A stretch of 64,000 nt of DNA from Aestuariivita sp. (GTDB taxonomy: Bacteria > Pseudomonadota > Alphaproteobacteria > Rhodobacterales > Rhodobacteraceae): NCBI RefSeq assembly GCF_021404545.1, contig NZ_JAAWWD010000007.1, positions 1 through 64,000 on the forward strand, written 5' to 3'. How positions within the stretch are numbered: position 1 is the first letter of the stretch; every line of letters begins with the position of its first letter. The position numbers were made by a program, and so were the translations under genes. Positions 329 to 50,005 of this stretch are shown here, one piece after another. Below the pieces are notes generated by a model. That model was not told where the DNA came from. It saw only the letters and a list, made by a program, of their open reading frames with translations, and did not search any database.

Positions 329-384
329 GCTTCTTCTGGCCACAAGTATTCCCGGGGGAGGCCGAAGGCCGGGGGCAGCGCCCC
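329..384 (-). repeat. 3'-end-associated structured repeat (copy 1)
   Basis: Minus-strand sense GGGGCGCTGCCCC..GGCCTTCGGCC..CCCGGGAATACTTGTGGCCAGAAGAAGC; downstream of the 518..3016 gene. Confidence 0.7.
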
Positions 385-517: not shown

Positions 518-3016
518 TCATCCGTCCTTGCGGATGACCTCGTTTTTCGGGTCATAGGGGCTGTCCTCTACCACTTCGGCATCCCAGAGCTGATTGAGGA
601 TCTTGACCTTCAGCAGCTTGCCCGGCACCGCCAGATCCGGTGTGACATACCCCATCCCAATAGATTTTCCGAACGCCACCGAATAGCCGCCGGATGTCAG
701 GCGACCCACCCGGCGATCGCCGTAATAAAGCGCCTCGCGTCCCCAGGGATCAGCATCTTCCGGCCCATCAATAAGCAATGTACAGCACTTCACCCGAACG
801 CCAGTTTTTTCCATCGCCGCCTTGCCGAGAAACTCTTTCGACAGATCCACAAAGCGCGGCAGATCGGCCTCCAGAGGGGTGGCGTCCCGCCCCAGCTCGG
901 TGCCGAATGCACGATAGGATTTCTCCTGCCGCAGCCAGTTTTGCGCGCGGGCGCCGACAAGTTTCATGCCATGCGCCTCACCTGCAGTAAGCAATTGATC
1001 CCAGAGGTAATTCTGCATCTCGATGGGGTGATGCAACTCCCAACCCAGCTCACCGGTATAGGCCACGCGAATGGCACGGACCGGGCACATCCCCAACTCG
1101 ATCTCGCGCATGCTCAACCACGGGAAGCGCTGATTCGACAAGACAGTCGCGGGATCGGCATCCCTGACGATGTCACGCAGCACATCGCGGGATTTCGGAC
1201 CGGCAATGGCAAAAACACCCCATTGCGTGCTCACATCCTGGATCTCGATATAGCCAAACTCCGGCACTTTATCTTCCGCTGCCTTGCGCAGGTAATCCGC
1301 GTCATAGGCCGTCCATGCCCCGGCGGAGACAAGATAGTATTCGTCCTGTCCCAGCCGCACGATCGTGTATTCCGTGCGTGTGGTCCCCTGGTTGGTCAGC
1401 GCATATGTGAGGTTGATCCGTCCGACCTTGGGCAACCTGTTGCAGGTAAACCAATCCAGAAACGCCGTCGCCCCCGGACCCTTGACGACATGTTTGGTAA
1501 AGGCCGTGGCATCGATCAACCCGACACTCTTGCGCACCGCCTCAGCCTCCGCCTTGGCATAGTCCGACCAACCGCCACGCCGGAATGACCGCGCGTCATG
1601 GTCGAAACTGTCCTGTGCATCCAAAGGCCCATAGTAATTGGGCCTTTCCCAACCGTTCACCGCACCAAACTGGGCACCAAGCGCCTTTTGGCGGTCATAG
1701 GCCGGTGCCGTCCGCAGCGGCCTGCACGCGGGTCGCTCCTCGTCAGGATGGTGCAGCACATAGACGTGATCATAGGCCTCTTCATTCTTGCGCGCCGCAT
1801 ATTCCGTCGTCATCCACGACCCGTACCGCCTGGGATCAAGCGACGCCATGTCGATCTCGGCCTCTCCCTCGACCATCAACTGTGCAAGATAGTGGCCCGT
1901 GCCGCCGGCGGCGGTAATGCCAAAGGAAAACCCTTCGGCCAGCCACATGTTGCGCAACCCCGGCGCGGGCCCCAACAGCGGGTTGCCATCCGGCGTGTAA
2001 CAAATCGGCCCGTTATAGTCATCCTTCAGCCCCACCTCTTCGGAGGAGGGAATGCGATGGATCATCGCCATATACTCGTCCTCGATCCGCTCCAGATCCA
2101 GCGGGAACAGATCCGCGCGAAAACTCTCTGGTACATCATACAGGAACCGCGCGGGGGCATTCTTCTCATAAGGCCCCAGGATCCAGCCGCCGCGCTCCTC
2201 ACGCACATACCATTTGGCATCCGCATCACGCAGCACAGGGTGTTCGCCGTTCTCCTTGCGCCAGGCCAGCAGAGCCGGGTCGGGTTCGGTCACGATGTAC
2301 TGATGCTCAACCGGAATGGCAGGGATCTTGATCCCCAACAGCCGTGCCGTGCGCTGCGCGTGATTACCGGTGGCGGTCACCACATGCTCGGCGTGGATAA
2401 CGGTTTGCTCCTCCGAAGCCACCAGACTGCCGCCCTTTTCCACCATCCGCGTGCAGGTCACATCCCAATGATCACCGGTCCAATGATACCCGTCCACCTG
2501 CCATTTCCGCTCGATTGTCACACCGCGCTGGCGTGCGCCCTTGGCCATCGCCATCGTCACATCGGCGGGGTTTATGTACCCATCGGTGGGATGGAAGATC
2601 GCGCCCACCAGATCCTCGGTCCGCACCAGCGGATAGCGCGCCTTGATCTGCGCAGGGCTCAGCCACTCATAGGGCACCCCACAGGTCTCGGCCGTCGAGG
2701 CATAGAGCATATACTCGTCCATCCGCGCCTGGCTTTGCGCCATGCGCAGGTTGCCCACCACCGAAAAGCCCGCGTTCAGCCCGGTCTCGTCTTCCAGCGT
2801 CTTGTAGAACTTGATCGAATAGTCGTGAATATGCGTGGTCGCATAAGACATGTTGAAATAGGGCAGCAACCCCGCCGCATGCCAGGTCGAGCCGGAGGTC
2901 AACTCATCGCGCTCCAGCAACATGACATCGTCCCAGCCAAACCGCGCCAGGTGATACGCAATCGACGTGCCAACGGCGCCGCCACCTACAACCAGAGCTT
3001 TGACATGGGTTTTCAT
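518..3016 (-). CDS. FAD-dependent oxidoreductase with GcvT (aminomethyltransferase) domain, dimethylglycine/sarcosine dehydrogenase-like
   Basis: MKTHVKALVVGGGAVGTSIAYHLARFG Rossmann motif, SGSTWHAAGL flavinylation-type motif, C-terminal GcvT fold (YTGELGWELH). Confidence 0.9.
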   Translation of the reverse strand: MKTHVKALVVGGGAVGTSIAYHLARFGWDDVMLLERDELTSGSTWHAAGLLPYFNMSYATTHIHDYSIKFYKTLEDETGLNAGFSVVGNLRMAQSQARMDEYMLYASTAETCGVPYEWLSPAQIKARYPLVRTEDLVGAIFHPTDGYINPADVTMAMAKGARQRGVTIERKWQVDGYHWTGDHWDVTCTRMVEKGGSLVASEEQTVIHAEHVVTATGNHAQRTARLLGIKIPAIPVEHQYIVTEPDPALLAWRKENGEHPVLRDADAKWYVREERGGWILGPYEKNAPARFLYDVPESFRADLFPLDLERIEDEYMAMIHRIPSSEEVGLKDDYNGPICYTPDGNPLLGPAPGLRNMWLAEGFSFGITAAGGTGHYLAQLMVEGEAEIDMASLDPRRYGSWMTTEYAARKNEEAYDHVYVLHHPDEERPACRPLRTAPAYDRQKALGAQFGAVNGWERPNYYGPLDAQDSFDHDARSFRRGGWSDYAKAEAEAVRKSVGLIDATAFTKHVVKGPGATAFLDWFTCNRLPKVGRINLTYALTNQGTTRTEYTIVRLGQDEYYLVSAGAWTAYDADYLRKAAEDKVPEFGYIEIQDVSTQWGVFAIAGPKSRDVLRDIVRDADPATVLSNQRFPWLSMREIELGMCPVRAIRVAYTGELGWELHHPIEMQNYLWDQLLTAGEAHGMKLVGARAQNWLRQEKSYRAFGTELGRDATPLEADLPRFVDLSKEFLGKAAMEKTGVRVKCCTLLIDGPEDADPWGREALYYGDRRVGRLTSGGYSVAFGKSIGMGYVTPDLAVPGKLLKVKILNQLWDAEVVEDSPYDPKNEVIRKDG

Positions 3017-3135: not shown

Positions 3136-3160
3136 CCCCTTCTTCTTGCTGAAAATACGC
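3136..3160 (-). repeat. 3'-end-associated structured repeat (degenerate copy)
   Basis: Minus-strand GCGTATTTTCAGCAAGAAGAAGGGG, matching the conserved tail; downstream of the 3244..4647 gene. Confidence 0.45.
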
Positions 3161-8195: not shown

Positions 8196-8252
8196 GGGGG
8201 CTCTGCCCCCGCGCTACGCGCTCCCCCGGGAATATTTAGGGCCAGAAGAAGC
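8196..8252 (+). repeat. 3'-end-associated structured repeat (copy 2a)
   Basis: GGGGGCTCTGCCCCC-GCGCTACGCGC-TCCCCCGGGAATATTTAGGGCCAGAAGAAGC, 21 nt after the 8175 stop. Confidence 0.85.
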
Positions 8253-8265
8253 AGGGGCGCCAATG

Positions 8266-8312
8266 GCTTCTTCTGGCCCAAAATATCCCCGGAGCGCGAG
8301 GCAGAGCCTCGC
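8266..8312 (-). repeat. 3'-end-associated structured repeat (copy 2b, inverted relative to 2a)
   Basis: Minus-strand GCGAGGCTCTGCCTCGC..TCCGGGGATATTTTGGGCCAGAAGAAGC, 19 nt after the stop of 8331..9239. Confidence 0.85.
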
Positions 8313-9331: not shown

Positions 9332-10327
9332 ATGCAGGCCATGATCTATCGCGCATTCGGCGCCGCACGGGATGTCTTGCACCTCGAAGAGGTTGCCAGG
9401 CAAACACCTGAGCCGGGCGAGGTGCGCGTGGCGCTGCGCTGGTCCGGGGTCAACCCGTCGGACGTCAAAGCGCGGGCGGGCGCGCGCGCAGGAGTGACCG
9501 AACTTCCTTTCCCCGCCATCATTCCGCACAGCGACGGCGCAGGCGTGATTGCCGATGTCGGCGCAGACGTGGACCCTGCCCGCTTAGGTGAACCTGTCTG
9601 GATCTGGAACGGTCAGTGGCGACGCGCCTTCGGCACGGCGGCATCCGAAATCACCCTGCCTGCCGAACAGGCCGTTGCCCTGCCACGCGATATCGATCTG
9701 CAAACCGGCGCGATCCTTGGCATTCCGGGCCTAACTGCGGTTCACACGGTCTTTAACGGTGGGCCGGTCGCAGGCAAAACCGTCCTGGTCCAAGGGGCCG
9801 CAGGCACGGTGGGGCTTCTGGCCGTGCAACTGGCCAAATGGGGCGGTGCGCAGGTGATCGCCACCGCACGCGGTGCGGGGCTGGAGCGGGTCGCAGCCCT
9901 TGGTGCCGATGCCGTTTTCGATTTCACCCGGCCCGATCTGGCGCAGGCCATCCTGGCGGCCAGTGACGGCGCACCTATTGACCGGATCGTTGAGGTCGAG
10001 TTCGGCCTCAACGCCGCAACCGATACCGCCGTCATCGCCGAGAACGGGACGATCTGCGCCTATGGCTCGGCTCAGTCGATGGCGCCCGTGTTGCCGTTCT
10101 ATCCACTGATGTTCAAGGCCGTGACCTTGGAAATGGCACTGATCTATCTGCTGACCCCAAGCCAGCGCGCAGCCGCCATCGACCATTTGAACGCGGCGCT
10201 CATTGCCGGAGCACTGACTTGCCCGGTCGCCGAAACCTTTGCGCTGGCCGACACCGCAGCCGCGCATGAAGCTGTCGAGGCGGGCAATCGCGCCGGAGCC
10301 ATTCTGGTTCGGACCGGGCGGGATTGA
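9332..10327 (+). CDS. NADPH:quinone reductase / zeta-crystallin-type MDR alcohol dehydrogenase
   Basis: VLVQGAAGTVGLLAVQLAKWGGAQVIATA nucleotide-binding motif; SGVNPSDVKARAG. Confidence 0.9.
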   Translation: MQAMIYRAFGAARDVLHLEEVARQTPEPGEVRVALRWSGVNPSDVKARAGARAGVTELPFPAIIPHSDGAGVIADVGADVDPARLGEPVWIWNGQWRRAFGTAASEITLPAEQAVALPRDIDLQTGAILGIPGLTAVHTVFNGGPVAGKTVLVQGAAGTVGLLAVQLAKWGGAQVIATARGAGLERVAALGADAVFDFTRPDLAQAILAASDGAPIDRIVEVEFGLNAATDTAVIAENGTICAYGSAQSMAPVLPFYPLMFKAVTLEMALIYLLTPSQRAAAIDHLNAALIAGALTCPVAETFALADTAAAHEAVEAGNRAGAILVRTGRD

Positions 10328-21788: not shown

Positions 21789-21812
21789 GCTTCTTCTCGC
21801 TCTTAAATACGA
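21789..21812 (-). repeat. 3'-end-associated structured repeat (degenerate copy)
   Basis: Minus-strand GTATTTAAGAGCGAGAAGAAGC; downstream of the MarR gene. Confidence 0.5.
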
Positions 21813-28896: not shown

Positions 28897-28923
28897 GTCC
28901 CTCACACCGGTATTCGGACAAAA

Positions 28924-28947
28924 GGGGGCCTCCGTGGCCCCCTTTTT
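28924..28947 (+). terminator. Rho-independent terminator of rplY
   Basis: GGGGGCC-TCCGT-GGCCCCC-TTTTT. Confidence 0.92.
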
Positions 28948-29006
28948 CGATCCCCGGCTCGCACACCTCGATAAATGAGCGGCTGCGCCGCATTCTTTTT
29001 TTACTT

Positions 29007-29072
29007 GTGCGCGGCCGCACGGGCCTTGGGACGCTGTCCCAATCCCTGGGAATATTTAAAGCCAGAAGAAGC
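29007..29072 (+). repeat. 3'-end-associated structured repeat (copy 3)
   Basis: GTGCG-CGGC-CGCAC, TTGGGAC-GCT-GTCCCAA, CCCTGGGAATATTTAAAGCCAGAAGAAGC. Confidence 0.75.
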
Positions 29073-29191
29073 ACGGAACGGTGCTGTGGCGGCTTGCCGG
29101 AAAACCGCCTCAAAAGCCTGGCATGAGGTGGCAACAGAGCCTGCCCGGCGAAGGGGCACGATGATGTGCCGCGGCGCCCGCGGGCAGGTCT

Positions 29192-40244: not shown

Positions 40245-40301
40245 GCTTCTTCTGGCCGGAAATATTCCCGGGGGAGCGCGCAGCGCGGGGGCAGAGCCCC
40301 C
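40245..40301 (-). repeat. 3'-end-associated structured repeat (copy 4)
   Basis: Minus-strand GGGGGCTCTGCCCCC-GCGCTGCGCGC-TCCCCCGGGAATATTTCCGGCCAGAAGAAGC; nearly identical to copy 2a. Confidence 0.88.
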
Positions 40302-47304: not shown

Positions 47305-49764
47305 ATGCCCGATACGCTGCCCAGCCATGCCCAGACCGTCATTATCGGCGGCGGCTCCATTGGGACCAACACCGCTTATCATCTGACCAAGCTGGGCCAC
47401 CGCGATGTGGTGGTTCTGGAACAGGGCCAGCTGACCTCCGGCACCACTTGGCATGCGGCGGGGCTGATCGTGGCCGGACTGCTGAAATCGGAGGCCGAGT
47501 GCGAGATCTATACCCATGGGCGCGATCTCTATGCCCGGCTTGAGGCAGAGACGGGCCTGCCCACGGGTTTTCGGGATGTGGGATACCTCCAGATCGCCAA
47601 TAATGACGAGCGGATGCATGAGATGCGGCGCGTGGCCCCCTTCATGCGCCGGTTCGGGATCAATTGTTACGAAATCTCTCCGCGTGAGGCGCAGGAGATG
47701 TTTCCCATTGGCGACCTCTCCGACGTCAGGGGCGCGTTCTATATCCCCGAGGATGGGCGCGCCAATCCGGTGGATCTGACGATGTCGCTGGCCAAGGGCG
47801 CGCGCATGGGCGGCGCGCGGATTTTCGAAGGCGTGCGCGTCACCGAGATTATGGCCCAGGGCGCCACCGCAACCGGCGTGCGCACCCAAAGCGGCCAGAC
47901 GATCACAGCTGAAAACGTGGTGATCTGCGGGGGCATGTGGTCGCGCCAGCTGGGCGAGCGGCACGGGATCACCCTGCCCCTGCAAGCGGCCGAGCATTAC
48001 TATCTGATCACCGAAACGATCCCCGATCTGCCGCGCGATCTGCCGGTGCTCGAAGATCCGTCGACCTATACCTATTACCGCGAGGAAGTGGGCGGGCTGA
48101 TGCTGGGCCTTTTCGAGCCCGGAGCCGCGGCCTGGAAACTGGGCGGTATCCCCGACGATTTCCAGTTTGGCGAGATCGAACCGGATTGGGACCGCGTCGG
48201 CCCGGATCTGGAAAAAGCCTATTCCCGCGTGCCCGAGACGATGAAATACGGGGTCAAGAAACTCTTTTGCGGGCCCGAAAGCTTTACCCCGGATCTGGCC
48301 CCGCTGGTGGGGCCGACGCCCGCGCTCAGGAATTGCTGGGTGGCCTGCGGGATGAACTCCCTGGGTATTCTCAACGGGGCGGGCACCGGCATGGTGCTGG
48401 CCCATTGGATCGTAGACGGGCTGCCGCCCATCGACGTCACGGGCATCAACGTCAACCGTTTCCAGCGGTCGGAGGCCACACCCGCCTTTCGCCGCGACCG
48501 CACCCCTGAGCTTTTGGGCAAGCTTTTCGGTCAGCACTTTCACAACGAAAGCCCCCGGACCGCCCGAAATGTCAAACGCTCGGTCCTTTATGACCGGCTC
48601 ACGGCGGCGGGTGCCTATTTCGGCGAGGGCAACGGCTGGGAACAGCCCGACTGGTTCGCGCCGACACCGGAACAGGCAAAGATCGACAGCTATAGCTGGT
48701 TCCGCCAGACCTGGTTCGATTGGCATGCCGAAGAACATCGCGCCGCGCGCGAGGATGTGGTGCTGATGGACATGACGTCGATGTCGTGTTTCCTGGTTCA
48801 GGGACGTGATGCCTGCGCGTTGCTGTCGCGTCTGTCGTGCAACGAGGTCGACGTGGCGCCGGGCCGCGTGGTCTATACCGCCTGGGTCAACGAACGTGGC
48901 GGGTTCGAGGCGGATCTGACCGTGACGCGGCTGGATACCGACAGGTTCATGGTCGTGGTGGGCGAAAACTCCCACGGGCATACCGAGATGCGCATGCGCC
49001 GCCATATCGGCGCAGGGGAATTCGTGACTATCACCGATGTCACCGCCGGGCGGACGCAAATCAACGTGCATGGCCCCAAGGCGCGGGAGCTGATGCAGCG
49101 CGTCTCGGGCGCGGATCTGAGCAATGAGGGCTTCCCTTTCATGACCGCCCGCGAGATCGACGTGGGCTATGCCTGGGTTCTGGCCTACCGCGTGACCTTC
49201 ATCGGTGAACTGGGCTGGGAGCTGCATGTGCCCGCAACCCAGGCGGTGCAAACCTATGATCTGTTGATGGAGGCCGGGCGCGATCTGGGGCTGAGGAACG
49301 CAGGGATGCAGACGCTGAACTCGCTGCGACTGGAGAAGGCTTACCGCGATTTCGGGATTGATGTGGACAATACCGACAACCCGATCGAGGCGGGCCTTGG
49401 CTTTGCCGTCAAGCTCGACAAACCGGGCGGCTTCATCGGGCGCGACGCGCTGGCGGCGATCAGGGCGCAGGGCGTGCCCAAGACGCGGATGCTGCAATTC
49501 CTGCTCAAGGACCCCGAGCCGCTGATGTATGGCAACGAGATGATCTATCTCGGCGACCGGCAGGTGGGCTACATCCAGGTGGGCGGCTATGGCCATTCGC
49601 TGGGCGGGGCGGTCGGCATCGGCTTTGCCGAGCTGGATGAGCCGCTGACAGCCCAGATCGTGGCGGATGGTGACTGGTCCATCGAGATCGCGGGGGAGCG
49701 GATTGCAGCCACCGCCTCGCTCAAACCGCTCTATGATCCGGGGATGGCAAAGATCAGGTGCTGA
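47305..49764 (+). CDS. Dimethylglycine/sarcosine dehydrogenase-like FAD-GcvT protein
   Basis: VIIGGGSIGTNTAYHLTKLGHRDVVVLEQGQLTSGTTWHAAGL; C-terminal GcvT (VTFIGELGWELHVP). Confidence 0.92.
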   Translation: MPDTLPSHAQTVIIGGGSIGTNTAYHLTKLGHRDVVVLEQGQLTSGTTWHAAGLIVAGLLKSEAECEIYTHGRDLYARLEAETGLPTGFRDVGYLQIANNDERMHEMRRVAPFMRRFGINCYEISPREAQEMFPIGDLSDVRGAFYIPEDGRANPVDLTMSLAKGARMGGARIFEGVRVTEIMAQGATATGVRTQSGQTITAENVVICGGMWSRQLGERHGITLPLQAAEHYYLITETIPDLPRDLPVLEDPSTYTYYREEVGGLMLGLFEPGAAAWKLGGIPDDFQFGEIEPDWDRVGPDLEKAYSRVPETMKYGVKKLFCGPESFTPDLAPLVGPTPALRNCWVACGMNSLGILNGAGTGMVLAHWIVDGLPPIDVTGINVNRFQRSEATPAFRRDRTPELLGKLFGQHFHNESPRTARNVKRSVLYDRLTAAGAYFGEGNGWEQPDWFAPTPEQAKIDSYSWFRQTWFDWHAEEHRAAREDVVLMDMTSMSCFLVQGRDACALLSRLSCNEVDVAPGRVVYTAWVNERGGFEADLTVTRLDTDRFMVVVGENSHGHTEMRMRRHIGAGEFVTITDVTAGRTQINVHGPKARELMQRVSGADLSNEGFPFMTAREIDVGYAWVLAYRVTFIGELGWELHVPATQAVQTYDLLMEAGRDLGLRNAGMQTLNSLRLEKAYRDFGIDVDNTDNPIEAGLGFAVKLDKPGGFIGRDALAAIRAQGVPKTRMLQFLLKDPEPLMYGNEMIYLGDRQVGYIQVGGYGHSLGGAVGIGFAELDEPLTAQIVADGDWSIEIAGERIAATASLKPLYDPGMAKIRC

Positions 49765-49821: not shown

Positions 49822-49863
49822 GCTTCTTCTTGCCCAAAATACCGCCGGGAAGCCCGAAGGGCT
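49822..49863 (-). repeat. Structured repeat (copy 5, opposite orientation to the upstream gene)
   Basis: Minus-strand AGCCCTTCGGGCT-TCCCGGCGGTATTTTGGGCAAGAAGAAGC. Confidence 0.6.
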
Positions 49864-50005
49864 GGCCCCTCGCTCCTGCCATCAGCCGCCCGCGCAGGAC
49901 CTATGGCCACAAAGATGCCGGACAGACACCGATCTGACTTGACCCTCCCAAGGGCGCGCATAAAGCTGCCGCGCGCATGGCCCCGGTGCGGGGCGCAACG
50001 CTTGG

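Follow-up and report, generated by a model that had tools for sequence, protein, structure and literature searches.

The locus at 40245-40301 raises the question of what a short hairpin-bearing element, repeated within the window (the whole 64,000-nt stretch of Aestuariivita sp. DNA that was analysed), does at the ends of genes. An earlier note had described eight copies and proposed an RNA element acting at mRNA 3' ends. All eight were present at their positions, and the stems quoted for them were found in the window sequence; for the second-hairpin stem, written GCGC-TAC/TGC-GCGC, both the TAC and the TGC loops were present. Seven of the eight lie downstream of a same-strand gene when read in the GAAGAAG sense (the R sense), the exception being the copy at 49823. 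The proposed tail, GGGAATATTT..GCCAGAAGAAGC, exists but is exact in just three copies. Two hairpins, given as a common feature, are found in many copies, but those at 3139 and 21790 are without a clear pair and that at 49823 is a weak variant. The invariant part in the R sense is a core, TATTT-N3/4-GC[CAG]AGAAGAAG, and the hairpins are variable and sometimes missing. The base after GC sets the class of the core (C, A or G).

In the noted copy, the core (TATTTCCGGCCAGAAGAAG, 40246-40264, minus strand) is of the C class, and the hairpins GGGGGC-TCT-GCCCCC and GCGC-TGC-GCGC, a third C run and GGGAA occupy 40265-40301 (minus). Downstream of the gene at 518-3016, a core with one change (TACTT) is located at 330-348 (minus), 170 nt past the stop codon at 518, with the hairpins GGGGC-GCT-GCCCC and GGCC-TTC-GGCC at 349-384 (minus). 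The A-class core (GCAAGAAGAAG) at 3139-3157 (minus) is kept at the orthologous site of the sister species. Two C-class units with convergent genes on either side form an inverted pair. Unit 1 comprises the hairpins GGGGGC-TCT-GCCCCC and GCGC-TAC-GCGC (8196-8232, plus) and a core (8233-8251, plus); after a spacer at 8252-8266, unit 2 comprises a core (8267-8285, minus) and the hairpin GCGAGGC-TCT-GCCTCGC with GCTCCGGGGA (8286-8312, minus). The core at 21790-21809 (minus) is of the G class with N4 spacing and is hairpin-poor, and the next gene starts 15 nt on. After rplY, a dispersed 97-bp cassette of three hairpins and a core was recognised by own-genome matches at 28977-29073 (plus), with the core as its right end at 29053-29071 (plus); at 28897-29073, this cassette starts with GCGGCTGCGCCGC and ATTCTTTTTTT, an ordinary-looking terminator ahead of the core. 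The exceptional copy has an A-class core at 49823-49841 (minus) and a weak hairpin region, AGCCC-TTC-GGGCT, at 49842-49872 (minus). The genes at 518-3016 and 47305-49764 are paralogous DAO/GCV_T genes (sarcosine/dimethylglycine dehydrogenase-like) with an element near each 3' end; at 47305-49764 it is in the opposite sense, unlike that of the 518-3016 paralogue.

The exact core occurs 95 times (47 forward and 48 reverse) in the whole 4.82-Mb genome, and a reversed control gave no match. With up to two mismatches allowed, 128 matches were obtained, compared to 4 for the control, and 100 shuffles gave none. In a 1.07-Mb sample of the genome, 94 cores were perfect, 8 had one mismatch and 6 had two, beyond which matches were at background level. 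The 16 fixed core positions are nearly invariant, and decaying copies are very few. The C class has 70 copies of the form GGGAA-TATTT-NNR-GCCAGAAGAAGC, usually with hairpins of which GGGGGC-TCT-GCCCCC, GCGC-TGC-GCGC, GGCC-TTC-GGCC and GCGAGGC-TCT-GCCTCGC are examples. The A class (18 copies) and the G class (14 copies) both have ..CG before TATTT; their flanks are mostly unique, and a notable hairpin is often absent. An additional wording, CCG(G)-TATTT-NNN-AAGAGAAGAA, was found in 13 copies in the 1.07-Mb sample.

The position of the core relative to genes was studied in the same sample, which was taken around known copies, with gene calls from a purpose-written simple codon model. Only 1 of 102 cores was inside a gene. 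Unpaired cores were found in 23 convergent gaps and 4 divergent gaps (P = 5e-6 against gap length), and in tandem gaps 32 were oriented along the gene sense and 14 against it. Among the pattern matches listed for six relatives, 43 tandem copies had the same sense and 25 the opposite, giving 75 and 39 for all seven genomes combined (P = 0.001). The 3'-end and orientation bias suggested in the earlier note was thus found genome-wide and in the relatives, with about one-third of the tandem copies in the "wrong" orientation. The same-strand stop codon is at least 14 nt upstream of TATTT, with a median of roughly 50 to 60 nt, and in both the genome under study and the sister species the hairpin side is never closer than 14 to 15 nt to a stop codon. 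The AGAAGAAG end is often 1 to 15 nt from the next open reading frame, whichever its direction, with a cluster 15 nt before the start codon. This asymmetry would be compatible with a process running in the R sense for which the upstream RNA must be clear of ribosomes and the downstream side has no requirement. Promoter function in either sense was rejected, as there is no conserved -35/-10 spacing and the element is located in convergent gaps.

Of 61 core-bearing gene ends, 9 had a called ordinary terminator (a hairpin and a T tract), as did 36 of 540 other gene ends; overall, such terminators were called at only about 6 to 8% of gene ends. At the nine core-bearing ends, the called terminator shared its downstream region with the core, and several were clearly upstream of it; the core may therefore act as a further barrier behind a first terminator. 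Folding of the 50 nt ahead of the core scored weakly (median z about -0.9), since shuffled GC-rich sequence folds well too.

The core is confined to the Rhodobacteraceae/Roseobacteraceae, and in about 285 other alphaproteobacterial genomes it was detected at background level only. Within the family it is written in lineage dialects, including GCCAGATGAAG (G019), GCAAGATGAA, GCCAGAAAAAG and CAGAGTGAAAG, for which reversed controls were zero or near zero; some tested genomes showed no dialect. The sister species has 25 copies of GCAAGAAGAAG, and G032 has GCGAGATGAAG. Two dialects occur together in G069 (GCCAGAAAAAG and ACGAGAAGAAG) and in G011 (GCAAGATGAA and AACAGAAGAAG). G076 had no match with the first wording; its dialect was predicted from a single hairpin in a 314-kb sample and then counted, giving 48 copies of CTTTCACTCTG-N3-AAATA and no control matches. 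TATTT and the spacing of three are fixed in nearly all dialects. Which four bases precede TATTT is tied to the dialect that follows: in G011, GAGG/AAGG preceded all 13 copies with GCAAGATGAA and GGAG/AGAG all 8 with AACAGAAGAAG, and in the genome under study the CCG-type flank accompanied AAGAGAAGAA in 13 of 13 copies. This suggests that both parts may belong to a single recognition site, bipartite and about 22 bp long. In G069, one flank is common to both dialects, so the link is not universal.

Twelve orthologous places, picked by the presence of the core in the sister species, were compared with the genome under study (coding identity around 80%). The core was kept at 8 of these 12 places with diverged flanks, 3 had no core in the genome under study and 1 had changed to the AAGAGAAGAA wording. 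Among the eight kept cores, one switched from the A to the C class (L172/L089). Single core copies appear to be under selection, since 16 fixed positions would not be expected to survive such divergence in neutral relics.

The hairpins behaved differently from the core: copies across genomes and at orthologous sites indicate that they are dispensable and the core is not. About 190 nt upstream of rplY, Ruegeria and its close relatives have an inverted pair, and in 15 orthologues from this group, read in the R sense, 91.8% of the cells were paired, compared to 49 to 56% for slid partners. Five of the seven pairs of the second helix (H2) changed on both sides, and the first helix hardly varied. 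Between the sister species and the genome under study, covarying base pairs were found in one orthologue (L176/L044); at one orthologous site, GGCCC/GGGCC in the second hairpin had become GGTCC/GGACC. The apparent compensatory changes of the earlier note are therefore real for H2 at the orthologous Ruegeria site, but many of the stem differences between paralogues are those of different repeat modules and do not count as covariation. The triloops have a strong single-strand preference, TNC in the GAAGAAG sense and GNA on the other strand: among distinct R-sense triloop hairpins, which are not fully independent through shared ancestry, 29 were TNC and 2 GNA, whereas the window as a whole gave 26 and 20. 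G-U and A-C wobbles in the stems were about equal (18 and 17); therefore, the stems do not mark the R-sense RNA as the selected form. Upstream of TATTT in many copies (e.g., 40265-40301 and 8286-8312), the second arm of the hairpin and a third run form a mirror repeat, as in CCCCTCACACTCCCC, CTCCCCCAGACCCCCTC, GCCTCGCGCTCCG and GTCCCAAACCCTG. The own-arm mirror match was 0.82, compared to 0.72 in 2,000 permutations, none of which was as high, a significance inflated by related copies; the direct-repeat match for the same arms was 0.69, compared to 0.65. The geometry of this mirror repeat is that of a C+.G-C/T.A-T triple strand.

The reading of these results that we favour, tentatively and at a little under an even chance, is that the element is a gene-end transcription boundary which would be read by a lineage-specific trans-acting factor and of which one class is mobile. 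The strictly conserved core consists of about 4 bp, TATTT, N3 and about 11 bp; it usually has one to three hairpins ahead and is placed just past a same-strand stop codon and directly before the next open reading frame. A putative sequence-specific factor, more probably a DNA-binding protein than an RNA, would bind the site, and transcription in the GAAGAAG sense would stop at or near TATTT, assisted by upstream RNA hairpins where these are present. The next gene, whether convergent, tandem or exposed to antisense transcription, would be shielded from read-through, and the dialects would reflect co-evolution with the putative factor. Counted in favour of this reading are the number and sharpness of the copies, their placement after same-strand genes, the cores kept at orthologous places, the H2 changes, the dialects with their near-empty reversed controls, the linkage of flank and dialect and the loop asymmetry. 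Counted against this are the hairpin-poor copies, which cannot be intrinsic terminators alone, the wrong-way tandem copies, the lack of an RNA-strand wobble signal and the ordinary terminators that are sometimes upstream. A more specific version, in which a dedicated, fast-evolving factor family with paralogues for the several dialects of one genome ends or blocks transcription at the 22-bp site and hairpin cassettes spread that site, is unlikely; if true, it would give bacteria their own equivalent of roadblock termination.

The earlier proposal, an mRNA 3'-end RNA element acting as a stabiliser, a processing site or an sRNA/Hfq target through the AGAAGAAG tail, accounts for the 3' location with its sense bias, the covariation in H2 and the loop preference. 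It is nevertheless improbable, considering that wobbles of both kinds are equally frequent, hairpins can be lost and wrong-way copies exist. Base pairing of the tail to an sRNA in particular is disfavoured: the flanks on the two sides of TATTT vary jointly from lineage to lineage but TATTT itself does not, and such a pattern, with N3 free to vary, is not what pairing to an RNA looks like. The AGAAGAAG tail can also be read as ARN triplets. Ordinary intrinsic terminators, alike only through recent copying and with a core that has no partner, would explain the hairpin clusters followed by AATATTT at gene ends; this also seems improbable, as the T tract is merely TATTT, some copies have no hairpin and the 11 bases conserved after the T tract are not needed for intrinsic termination. 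Very improbable is a DNA uptake sequence or another sequence recognised over the whole chromosome. Dialects, inverted pairs and perfect copies far more numerous than near-perfect ones would be in its favour, but there is about one exact copy per 50 kb, a gene contained just 1 of the 102 sampled copies, and the orientation follows the genes.

The main rival to the boundary element is a REPIN-like repeat without 3'-end function, i.e., a REP/BIME/REPIN-like selfish repeat in which the core and hairpins are the terminal site of a putative transposase, each dialect would descend from its own master element and insertions would simply be tolerated at gene ends. We consider this somewhat less likely than the boundary element, and it stays the main rival because the wobble test showed no RNA-strand signal. 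The GGGAATATTT..GGCCAGAAGAAGC class has spread both as a cassette and in the form of inverted pairs, with the core as the right terminus. The 97-bp cassette, in the order GGAGCGGCTGCGCCGC, T-rich stretch, GTGCGCGGCCGCAC, TTGGGACGCTGTCCCAA, ACCCTGGGAATATTT..AGAAGAAGC, has around 20 near-full copies in the genome under study and one or two diverged ones in the sister species; its ends are sharp, and the right end coincides exactly with the end of the core, at AGAAGAAGC. In the sample, 20 of 102 copies were in inverted pairs with spacers of 16 to 20 nt. At the Ruegeria site (L208-L272, about 9760-9890), the inverted pair comes and goes as one block of about 120 bp, which about 15 genomes have and about 5 lack, and a selfish repeat would also fit the occurrence of several dialects within one genome. 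The C class thus acts like a mobile repeat, with the evidence for mobility limited to this class and the pairs. Against a selfish repeat, cores persist at orthologous places where flanks are non-repetitive and diverged, which is unexpected for relic insertions; many copies have no hairpin or repeat beyond the core; and tandem gaps have an orientation bias. Two genes for 152-aa IS200-like Y1 transposases are present in the genome (G000:C95:161336-161692 and G000:C18:12513-12869; L191 and L192), neither locus with a core near the Y1_Tnp gene, and an IS200/RAYT origin was rejected on this ground. The boundary reading was preferred, only moderately, over a pure REPIN on the grounds that cores are kept at orthologous sites and that some copies have no hairpin.

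Further observations concern the pairs and the distribution of the C class. The Ruegeria pair has a gene on one side and the rplY promoter region on the other; its spacer contains GGATCC, and in several genomes both units have the same wording before TATTT. Inverted pairs at L037, L039, L046, L056 and L075 join two dialects, with GCCAGAAGAAG facing AAAGAGAAGAA. A phage link was rejected, as the C-class pattern had no matches in viral contigs.

If the boundary reading is true, a major marine and model bacterial family would have an undescribed gene-end signal with species dialects. The dialects would imply a co-evolving trans-acting partner that is now directly searchable, and the signal would help to explain how closely packed genes are kept separate despite few ordinary terminators. 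Even if selfish, the element would be an intergenic repeat family missing from Rfam and undescribed in the open literature searched. The earlier note had left room for an already described Rfam family, and none matched the element at the gathering threshold; the only gathering-level match in the window was a tRNA, and low-score matches on the inverted pair were mostly to microRNA models, well below threshold. In the parts of the open-licence literature that the search covered, no described Rhodobacteraceae gene-end repeat or Term-seq motif was found.

REP/BIME/REPIN elements of E. coli and Pseudomonas (e.g., PMC3116915) are extragenic and palindromic, often near gene 3' ends, with inverted doublets separated by a short spacer, lineage-specific families and presence or absence as blocks. 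The present element shares these features, and its C class and pairs are mobile units. Unlike in REP/REPIN, conservation lies in a non-palindromic core that is not part of the hairpin, the hairpins are variable or absent, the core is kept at orthologous sites and no RAYT-type gene adjoins it at the two Y1_Tnp genes examined. The DNA uptake sequences of the Neisseriaceae and Pasteurellaceae have species dialects and inverted pairs associated with terminators, and their copies, many of them within coding sequence, number in the hundreds to thousands. The element shares the dialects and inverted pairs but is much rarer, almost absent from coding sequence and oriented with the genes. Rho-independent terminators, including hairpin clusters (PMC8355165), have hairpins downstream of stop codons. 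The element likewise has hairpins past stop codons followed by an A/T-rich TATTT, but it differs in that 11 fixed bp follow the T tract, the wording varies by dialect and some copies lack a hairpin; hairpins are found in many but not all copies, and the T tract is TATTT. As in structured cis-acting RNAs, there are covarying pairs (in H2), but no strand-specific G-U excess was found. The element is thus REP/REPIN-like in part and uptake sequence-like in its dialects, and it departs from each in a defining feature; we place it with the terminator-associated interspersed elements, possibly with a new kind of factor behind it.
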